A stretch of DNA of 64,000 bases, from positions 12,436,983-12,500,982 of the forward strand of contig NC_087077.1 of assembly GCF_026151205.1 (NCBI RefSeq), in the 5' to 3' direction. Shown here in pieces: positions 24,441-46,261 of the stretch (the stretch's first letter is position 1; each line of letters begins with the position of its first letter). A program made the position numbers and the translations under genes. Source of the stretch: Bolinopsis microptera (taxonomy: Eukaryota; Ctenophora; Tentaculata; Lobata; Bolinopsidae). The notes under the pieces are model-generated. The model did no database searches. It was not told where the DNA came from and saw only the letters and a program-made list of their open reading frames with translations.

Positions 24441-26417
24441 TCAAACCCTTAGAGCCAGCGATGGTATCAGTTCCACTAAGTATCCCACAGTCCCTTTCTC
24501 CTTCTTAAAAACAGATCGTAAACATCGTTTACAGATCACCATCTGTGATAGAAGAAATCGGGTTCTTTCAGCAAGTTGCCTTCGGTTGCTGTCCGATGGA
24601 TTGCTCTTTGGGCGGCAAACCTCATCAATCTTGAAACACTTGCTTTGATGTTCCAGCAAGGTGCTCTGAACAACTTTGCGGAAGTCTGTTGGGGTTGTGT
24701 CCAGACTCTTGCTCGATGTTATCATCTTCAAATTCATCAAAGCGAACACACCACAATCATTCATGTTGTTAGACTTTTGTTGGTGCATATCCGGTGGGTT
24801 GAGCCATGTCCACCGATCATCTTCCATACTCTTACCCGTCTCAAACACATACATCTTATGAATGAGGTTGTAGATGGGCAAGAAGTCTTTCTTCGGTGAA
24901 CACAAGGAATCTATTATCACAACAGATTTGGTCGGTTTAATGATCGTTATCAAAACCCAGTGGTTATTATTGATATTGAACATCAGAGCTGTTAACGGTT
25001 TTGAAAAAAAAGGACTCCTTTTCATTTTCTTGATCGAAAGCAGGTCTATAAAACGACCGATCGCGATGTTCAGTAGCGATTGTATCGTCGTCCCTTCGAT
25101 GTACTGCACTTCATTTTGTCTATTATCTTCGACAATAAAACACATGGCTGCGGCATCAATAATATTTCCATTCAGTCTTTTATGAGGGCTAAGACAATGG
25201 ATTGAATCCGTCAAATTGATACCGTACACAGAAGTACAGTGGCTAACGTTTTGTTTGGGAGAATTAACGAATTCTGGAGACCTGGTGACCTGAGTCGGTT
25301 GATCTGAAGTTTGAGGAAGTTTTGTGAATTCTGGTGATTTGATGACCTGAGTTGGTTGGCTGGATGTTTCTTGAGCCACATTCGGTGGACTGAACGTTTT
25401 CTCGGTTGTTAATCTTCTATATATGCAGAGAACAGAATCTCTCTGCACGAGCTGATTGTGTTCACCCATATGCAAACTAACTCGCCGTGAGCTGTCGATC
25501 AAGTAGGGATGACTGTCAATGTGAACTAGAGCAGCCATGTTAAGTCCACTGTTTCTTTTCACAATACACCCTACAAGGTCGTGTGTCGCAACATCATTAA
25601 ATAGTACGGCGTAGCTCTGGCGATCAACCCTCTCAATTGTTAAGAAAAGATAATCTGCTTTAGATGTTGGTACTGGTCCACGGGAGTACACCTGACTATC
25701 TATCACAAGCCCTGAATTAAGCAGCAACGGCATGAAAGCAGATACCAGAGACACCAAAGTCATGCCCATTTCTTTTACTGCTGTCACATGCACAAACTTA
25801 TCATAGCTATCTTTCTTTATCATGCTAAGCAAATTCCTGATGTTCAATGGGATACTGTTGTCGTCTGCTATATATTCAAATAAGCCTACATACCAGAACA
25901 CTGTAAGAAGGCTATTGATGTTATCTGCCTGCACCTCTTCCAGATAAGGTAGCCTTAACATGAAGTTAGTTCCACCCCGCAGCTTGTCTGGCTGGAAGCA
26001 TTTCTCCACAGGGATGCGCTCACCAGCCACAAAGTGATCCTTACTGATGAACGTCGGGAATTCTTTGGGACTAGAAGAGTTGTCCATAGGTACCATCCAG
26101 CCATATTCATCATGGAGCTTAAACTGAAAACCTGTGACTCTTTCACGATCTTTCATAACCAGCAAATTTCGTCTGGAGTTATACCGTAGGGTGATGAATA
26201 ATATCAACTTGAGGTGTCTGTCACTTCGGCATTGTGATGCATGTTTTTTTATTATTTTTAAAACACTGTTCATACTTTCAGCATATTCAGTTGCTAATTT
26301 CTTCAATTCTACAATACAATCAGGGTCAGATAACACTTTCATCTCTCCCTTATGATTTTTGAGATGAAATCTATCTGCTGCCCCATAGATCTCAGTCACG
26401 CCACTCACCCTCGACAA
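24441..26417 (-). CDS. KDZ transposase C-terminal core fused to Ulp1/C48 protease
   Basis: 658 codons in the frame +1 to the preceding segment, overlapping it by 26 nt. Its first codon in that frame is not ATG, so it is a continuation and not a separate gene. IYGAADRFHLKNHKG followed by EYAESMNSVLK supplies the third acidic residue (Glu near 47) of the KDZ core. After a Ser/Pro-rich linker (about 340-395) comes an Ulp1-type protease: NNHWVLITI with His 486, VVIIDSL with Asp 503, QQKSNNMNDCGVFAL with Gln 547 and Cys 555. The full C48 catalytic set is present and the domain is complete. Ulp1 domains are known partners of KDZ transposases and cleave SUMO-type conjugates. The stop is at 24,441. 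Confidence 0.85.
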   Translation of the reverse strand: MSRVSGVTEIYGAADRFHLKNHKGEMKVLSDPDCIVELKKLATEYAESMNSVLKIIKKHASQCRSDRHLKLILFITLRYNSRRNLLVMKDRERVTGFQFKLHDEYGWMVPMDNSSSPKEFPTFISKDHFVAGERIPVEKCFQPDKLRGGTNFMLRLPYLEEVQADNINSLLTVFWYVGLFEYIADDNSIPLNIRNLLSMIKKDSYDKFVHVTAVKEMGMTLVSLVSAFMPLLLNSGLVIDSQVYSRGPVPTSKADYLFLTIERVDRQSYAVLFNDVATHDLVGCIVKRNSGLNMAALVHIDSHPYLIDSSRRVSLHMGEHNQLVQRDSVLCIYRRLTTEKTFSPPNVAQETSSQPTQVIKSPEFTKLPQTSDQPTQVTRSPEFVNSPKQNVSHCTSVYGINLTDSIHCLSPHKRLNGNIIDAAAMCFIVEDNRQNEVQYIEGTTIQSLLNIAIGRFIDLLSIKKMKRSPFFSKPLTALMFNINNNHWVLITIIKPTKSVVIIDSLCSPKKDFLPIYNLIHKMYVFETGKSMEDDRWTWLNPPDMHQQKSNNMNDCGVFALMNLKMITSSKSLDTTPTDFRKVVQSTLLEHQSKCFKIDEVCRPKSNPSDSNRRQLAERTRFLLSQMVICKRCLRSVFKKEKGTVGYLVELIPSLALRV

Positions 26418-46261: not shown

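Follow-up and report, generated by a model that had tools for sequence, protein, structure and literature searches.

Zisupton transposons contain SWIM, SAP and Ulp1 domains, and Ulp1-like proteases are also carried by MULE transposons, in which we know of no USP deubiquitinase. MULE elements belong to another transposase superfamily than the element described here, and an Ulp1-type protease is what the two DNA transposons have in common. The target site duplication (TSD) of Zisupton is 8 bp long according to an excerpt of PMC12730594, and the available excerpt of PMC12062965 places an F-box in one Zisupton isoform, so that, as far as this excerpt goes, modules of the ubiquitin system have a precedent. 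Fungal KDZ and other transposons carry TET/JBP enzymes, for which a role in escape from silencing is proposed in an excerpt of PMC12730594; Helitrons with OTU or VTD deubiquitinases are described in an excerpt of PMC9741609, whose authors suggest that these enzymes protect transposition proteins. KDZ elements and deubiquitinase-carrying transposons are both already known, and their joining, KDZ with USP, appears new: a first-pass annotation of the locus described below knew of no KDZ element with a USP module, and the literature searched shows no KDZ-USP fusion in titles and openings of abstracts; a mention may stand in the full text of Boehne 2012 or Iyer 2014.

We analyzed a window of 64,000 nucleotides from the ctenophore Bolinopsis microptera (NC_087077.1, positions 12,436,983 to 12,500,982), whose own numbering is used below unless a contig is named. 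Window positions 13866-49609 are best explained as a giant KDZ/Zisupton-like cut-and-paste transposon, carrying a gene in which a USP, linkers, a transposase and an Ulp1 protease follow one another; for this reading, taken as a whole, we estimate a probability of roughly 0.7. Like the Zisupton (platyfish)/KDZ group, as the excerpts portray it, the element has an 8-bp TSD and a cysteine cluster accompanying a KDZ-type core. Unlike that group, it has an N-terminal USP attached through spliced linkers and a length of 35.7 kb with long inverted satellite arrays, and the Pfam KDZ model finds no match in it. An accessory enzyme is present both here and in the fungal KDZ elements with TET/JBP, but according to the excerpt theirs is demethylating whereas here it is a predicted deubiquitinase. 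Helitrons likewise encode a deubiquitinase; they are rolling-circle elements, however, and the enzymes given in the excerpt are OTU or VTD and not USP.

The giant transposon measures 35,744 bp, or about 26.2 kb when the nested element is subtracted. Its termini, CAGAAGTACTTGAGA on the left and the reverse complement of GAGGGCTACTTGAGA on the right, are common to other copies and form imperfect terminal inverted repeats which, together with the 8-bp TSD, are two features of the KDZ/Zisupton group found in this element. The TSD, CATCTGAA, lies at 13858-13865 and again at 49610-49617, exact in 8 of 8 positions, and repeats containing GCCGG are present at both ends. Just inside the termini there are two subterminal arrays of 171-bp units: the left one (14086-16847, forward strand) has about 16 copies and the right one (47704-49571, reverse strand), inverted with respect to the left, about 11. 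The target of the element is a large foldback palindrome with 18-bp minisatellites (49610-60370); one arm of the palindrome holds the element, and the other arm is the uninterrupted, empty site with a single CATCTGAA. All nine ORFs of at least 80 aa in 16850-20350 are minisatellite, and no additional gene was recognised among the 94 ORFs of 20000-50000, most of them considered without a database search. A high-copy dispersed repeat, adjoining a 20-bp minisatellite, occupies 23699-23851 inside the element, and 39 of 40 scored matches are copies of this repeat elsewhere.

The termini recur in the genome. In a search that allowed up to 3 mismatches, the 26-base left terminus was found 13 times and the 25-base right terminus 8 times, every occurrence having 0 mismatches, and the reversed patterns that served as control gave 0 occurrences. 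Ten left ends were examined in retrieved stretches; the right end is present for seven and was not found within the retrieved stretch for the other three. Exact 8-bp target duplications flank all seven copies with both ends seen, the window copy included, and represent four kinds of site, namely CATCTGAA, ATGATCGA, GCGGCGCG (three occurrences, all within a single repeat context) and GTTCCATA (in two tandem copies). The GCGGCGCG copies lie on C1, C2 and C3 (L039-L040, L052-L055) and have flank and duplication in common, which would mean that the element prefers one repeat as its target or that the copy travelled within a larger repeat.

The six other two-ended copies are much shorter than the window copy (2,210-8,540 bp), and no sequence of window 18.3-46.8 kb was seen in any of them, hence they have no gene: they are deletion derivatives of the giant element. 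DNA from upstream of the gene is present as 98% copies on C1 (window 47700-46834) and on C11 (47700-47415). In the C11 copy, the left end, the array and window 16840-17398 are followed directly by window 47415 onwards, the inverted array and the right end, a layout that marks it as an internally deleted version of a unit spanning window 13866-49609. The inner segment of the C1 copy (L039 and L040) is inverted relative to the ends, as expected from recombination between inverted arrays. We also considered the 171-bp arrays as unrelated satellites, which was rejected because other copies have arrays at the same place. The C3 derivative and the window share 99.8% identity across 946 bp; the family of the giant element has therefore probably moved recently, and the window copy is best explained as a relic of this recently mobile family.

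Besides the ORFs of a nested transposon, B, a single gene was recognised in the element; it extends from the vicinity of the right end down to 24,441. Its order, as best explained by the sequence, would be USP, linkers, zinc finger, SWIM-like finger, CxC4-like cluster, SAP-like stretch, KDZ-type core and Ulp1. By the evidence of the element ends, the exact TSD, the empty site and the deletion derivatives, the USP lies inside the transposon. These same boundaries weigh on a different origin, in which a host USP gene acquired a transposase as its last exons. The gene does change character along its length, from a 5' part of small exons to a near-intronless 3' part, and it occurs once by searches with ORF2 and with the USP, fragments aside, as a host fusion would; but the whole gene model is bounded by transposon ends for which both an exact TSD and an empty site are known, and frame breaks are found in both parts. 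A host fusion was rejected on the ground of this enclosure and we regard it as very improbable.

The USP exons are all on the reverse strand: an exon with the Cys box (RLKNAGNTC, 43688-43800), which has an internal frame break, U2 (43290-43370), U3 with the QNDAHELL box (42952-43024), U4 (42575-42689), U5 (42035-42105), U6 (41371-41506), U7 with the His box YELISTVTHHPGGIGGHYTS (31512-31599) and U8 with the C-terminal strand FMLLYQK (30985-31085). From the Cys-box exon to the long ORF that starts at 28470, all 14 introns are GT-AG and all 14 agree in phase, although at the first junction this holds for just the latter half of the Cys-box exon. The first-pass annotation had proposed about 21 exons with consensus splice sites and agreeing phase. 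We could verify 15 of them, while the exons upstream of 43,800, for which chaining was attempted, could not be chained; the splice dinucleotides and phases hold throughout, although U8 has a weak site on either side (acceptor TTTTAAG, donor GTAACC) and the donor of U7 before it (GTGTAG) is weak too.

Joined in silico, these exons match the Pfam UCH profile with an E-value of 1.2e-12 (48.4 bits, cut-off 23.9), residues 44-257 covering profile positions 57-254 and the Cys box lying outside the match. Moreover, the last 69 residues (191-259, with the His box and the C-terminal strand) align to USP15, the best of the solved USPs, with an E-value of 1.1e-5. The USP boxes that had been read from the sequence are borne out for QNDAHELL and the His box, but an intact, in-frame Cys box is absent from the window USP, the RLKNAGNTC and LLVAVLQ halves being in different frames. 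A UCH profile search of the genome at E 10 returned 66 matches; the window exons are short and the window locus is not among these matches.

The intron between U6 and U7 is swollen by nested transposon A (31606-41169, 9.6 kb), whose boundaries and TSD were determined by eye. It has long inverted repeats of 585 bp at 99%, and its 8-bp TSD, CCCCAGGG (41170-41177 and 31598-31605), falls on the 3' splice site and recreates it, so that the intron could still be spliced with A inserted. Transposon B (36236-40601), with inverted repeats of about 336 bp, is inserted in an arm of A, and the ORFs at 36.9-40.0 kb belong within B, outside the USP gene.

Downstream of the USP exons, and also on the reverse strand, we find the linker exons L1 (30693-30749), L2 (30434-30490), L3 (29821-29859), L4 (29238-29297), L5 (28881-28919) and L6 (28629-28688). 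L4 resembles L2 and L5 resembles L3, likenesses that were reached by 0 of 2000 and 1 of 2000 shuffles, respectively. Six phase-0 linker exons had been claimed, and they are present: the 2.5-kb linker region contains a chain of 5 phase-0 open exon-like stretches, beyond the maximum of 3 in 2000 order-2 Markov sequences, under simple splice rules that were fixed after these splice sites had been seen and with L4 below the pyrimidine cut-off (8 of 15 pyrimidines, 9 required). When stretches were slid along the window, 16 of 246 had a chain of at least 5, 14 of them overlapping with the 171-bp arrays and the other 2 being the linker locus; in fact, both arrays (14086-16847 and 47704-49571) contain long phase-0 exon-like chains under the same simple rules. 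A stricter generic splice matrix gave 0 candidates in any stretch tested, the linker region included. One linker intron contains a perfect (GGA)148 tract of 444 bp at 29332-29775.

An in-frame Met is absent from all six linker exons. Their translation, if it occurs, would therefore begin upstream, where the only reading frame found is that of the USP exons. One transcript would join the USP exons to the transposase. Alternatively, the same giant element could hold two genes, a USP gene that stops soon past 30,985 and an independent transposase gene that begins at 28,485 or earlier. The weak splice sites of U8 would suit such an arrangement, and so would two features of the reading frame: past U8, if unspliced, it meets a stop after 12 codons, and an in-frame ATG stands 15 nt upstream of the transposase exon, at about 28,485. 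Yet the Met-free, phase-0 linker exons bridge both parts and come in pairs that are alike, and on C8 (below) a KDZ-type core and a USP are joined in one frame. We consider two genes unlikely and keep to the single spliced gene.

The 3' part of the gene consists of two ORFs on the reverse strand. ORF1 (26392-28470) has a zinc finger, a SWIM-like CxC..CxH pattern recognised by eye, a CxC4-like cluster, a SAP-like stretch and the first part of the KDZ-type core, and it ends at a frame break; ORF2 (24441-26423) has the remaining core (DRFH, E..N) and a C-terminal Ulp1/C48 domain. The C48 domain was identified by Pfam at residues 468-576 of ORF2 (E 1.5e-13), and it reads HWVL, DSL and NDCGVF, which we take to be the catalytic H-D-C positions. 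The first-pass annotation had SWIM finger, KDZ core and C48 following the linker exons, and had named profiles for C19, C48, SWIM, SAP and KDZ as a check. UCH and C48 did match, while the core proved to be split into two ORFs at about 26.4 kb and Pfam SWIM, SAP and KDZ (PF18758) had no match in the window ORFs. PF18758 also had none in the C8 and C1 pieces described below or in the genome, and it matched 0 of 14 control genomes, so that the sensitivity of this model here is undemonstrated. CxC4 in ORF1 stayed at an E-value of 0.15 (12.4 bits), under the cut-off of 26.9. AlphaFold models of ORF2 and ORF1 had pLDDT values of 34.1 and 28.7, too poor for a fold search, and a PHROGs scan gave nothing useful.

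ORF1 meets its stop at 26,392 and ORF2 carries on in another frame, the break lying at about 26.4 kb. A 22-nt intron at this point was considered and rejected: relative to L003, a C2 fragment with 96% identity across 680 columns, the window shows short indels at the break, which makes a plain frame break likelier. In the protein databases, one search found nothing at E 1e-3 and another nothing at E 10; the sole relative, and the one match at E <= 1, is the near-identical fragment P0001 (a 2136-bp ENA contig), 99% identical in a BLASTP alignment over 70% of the query. P0001 is without 64 residues, and its end diverges after ORF1 residue 643, as a frame change would produce. Pattern searches gave 0 matches in a viral contig collection and 8 in a genome contig collection, none of which is a relative. 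The claim that one gene unites USP and transposase can be divided: the ends, TSD, empty site and derivatives place both in the same mobile element, but with its reading frame broken at the Cys box and again within the core, the window copy is not expected to encode an intact fusion.

Since PF18758 does not match, the assignment of the window core to KDZ rests on a relative on C8. The C48 profile had 10 matches in the genome, at nine loci, including an open frame of 1465 aa on C8 (in the region 14.995-15.005 Mb) and one of 1763 aa on C1 (in the region 14.766-14.773 Mb). Single pairwise comparisons align C8 with ORF1 (BLASTP E 2e-27, 26% over 393 residues) and with the start of ORF2 (E 2e-5), and C1 with the window core (E 4e-21). 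The acidic positions in IGD, VCD, DRFH and AES, which we take to be putative DDE-type catalytic positions of the window transposase, are identical in the window, C8 and C1, as is one further D. The portion of C8 that was read, 883 stop-free residues, contains CxC4, at 28.5-29.1 bits for a cut-off of 26.9, as well as UCH, at 28.4 bits for a cut-off of 23.9, the latter aligned only over the last 77 profile positions. Because C8 is above the CxC4 cut-off and its BLASTP alignment at 2e-27 runs across the same stretch, a CxC cluster can be assigned to the window ORF1 through this homologue.

In C8 a Cys box (GGNNLCWLNS), GQPQDVCEV and a His box (YRLISFISYHGAIELGHY) are readable, and C48 lies downstream in the same 1465-aa frame. 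A predicted transposase core, USP and C48 in one unspliced frame are present in this genome, independently of any argument from splicing. The domain order differs: USP stands between core and C48 in C8, and N-terminal in the window. The window and C8 USPs resemble each other, a local score reached by 1 of 1000 shuffles and a global score reached by none of 1000. A dead USP within ORF2, between core and C48, was proposed from a likeness seen by eye and rejected, shuffles reaching its score in 255 of 1000 cases (local) and 171 of 1000 (global). In the 1763-aa frame of C1, SAP scores 22.2 bits, near its cut-off of 23.9, and the UCH search of the genome had no match; among the nine C48 loci, same-frame UCH was found at one, C8. 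Two other UCH matches, at C10:4210618-4211433 and C1:12517985-12518785, belong to open frames of 1409 and 1491 aa; such long frames might represent USP genes without introns or additional genes of transposons.

The searches for other copies of the gene returned fragments. The ORF2 protein had 5 matches in the genome: its own locus, a 350-bp piece on C9, a 680-bp piece on C2, and a 160-bp piece on C5 that accounts for two overlapping matches. These isolated pieces of the transposase ORF (C9:9062257, C2:1498574 and C5:18898714; L002-L004) span 160-680 bp at 89-97% identity, and no other window sequence matched around them in loci of 3.1-3.4 kb. All 8 genome matches of the USP protein at E 1e-3 are at the window locus, and the DNA of 29800-31600 matched, apart from its own position, an intron repeat that is dispersed and was hit in two copies. 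The searches with ORF2 and the USP thus revealed the whole gene only once, and the six other two-ended copies are gene-free, so that no copy found shows USP and transposase moving together.

This touches on a further possibility, that the giant element is a non-autonomous carrier into which, in this single copy, a second element or a captured gene landed, comprising USP and transposase or just the transposase. The gene is found in 0 of the 6 other two-ended copies, as a carrier would predict, and at two loci on C2 the left end adjoins USP exons of a different sequence. There, at distances of 0.5 and 1.1 kb inward from the left end (C2:7021915-7022540 and C2:7092763-7093990; L065-L068), we find two of the 66 UCH matches, C2:7022405 and C2:7093866. 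The two sites, about 98% alike, have an intact Cys box in sequence unlike the window's; at the first, a U2-like exon stands between the Cys-box exon and the left end, of which at least 126 bp (26 bp plus 100 bp) are present, and no right terminus was found near either. The expected number of such coincidences, estimated after they had been seen, is roughly 0.007 (13 ends, 2.2 kb each, 264.65 Mb). The two sites may be one event that was duplicated, and may represent USP-bearing relatives or else ends that are truncated and adjoin a USP gene. Several observations speak against a carrier: a search for inner termini, defined by inverted ends plus an 8-bp TSD, did not exceed an offset control, and an uncontrolled first search had found none with a TSD of 7 bp or more; the 8-bp TSD of the family matches that of Zisupton; and the near-identical ends of the C3 copy (99.8%) show recent mobility, which needs a transposase. 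We hold a carrier to be improbable, more so than two genes, and prefer a transposon with its own transposase gene.

By analogy with the family, a DDE transposase would bind the GCCGG repeats of the termini as well as the inverted 171-bp arrays, and it would cut with an 8-bp stagger. More speculatively, USP and Ulp1 at the transpososome might strip ubiquitin and SUMO from the transposase or from local chromatin, and one may speculate that the proteases shield the transposase from turnover. The Helitron deubiquitinases and TET in fungal KDZ elements, as presented in the excerpts, would be the nearest argued precedents for a role of this kind. We tentatively propose, at somewhat less than even odds for the proposal taken together, that KDZ transposons of Bolinopsis microptera took up a USP more than once (N-terminal and spliced in the window, between core and Ulp1 in C8), yielding dual-protease transposases that would evade ubiquitin/SUMO turnover or silencing in the germ line.

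What is documented here is a 35.7-kb cut-and-paste element with inverted ends made of satellite arrays, together with its deletion derivatives. A USP-Ulp1 transposase is a testable system and, if the transposase is joined to both USP and Ulp1, this would suggest selection on ubiquitin/SUMO control of transposases in animals.
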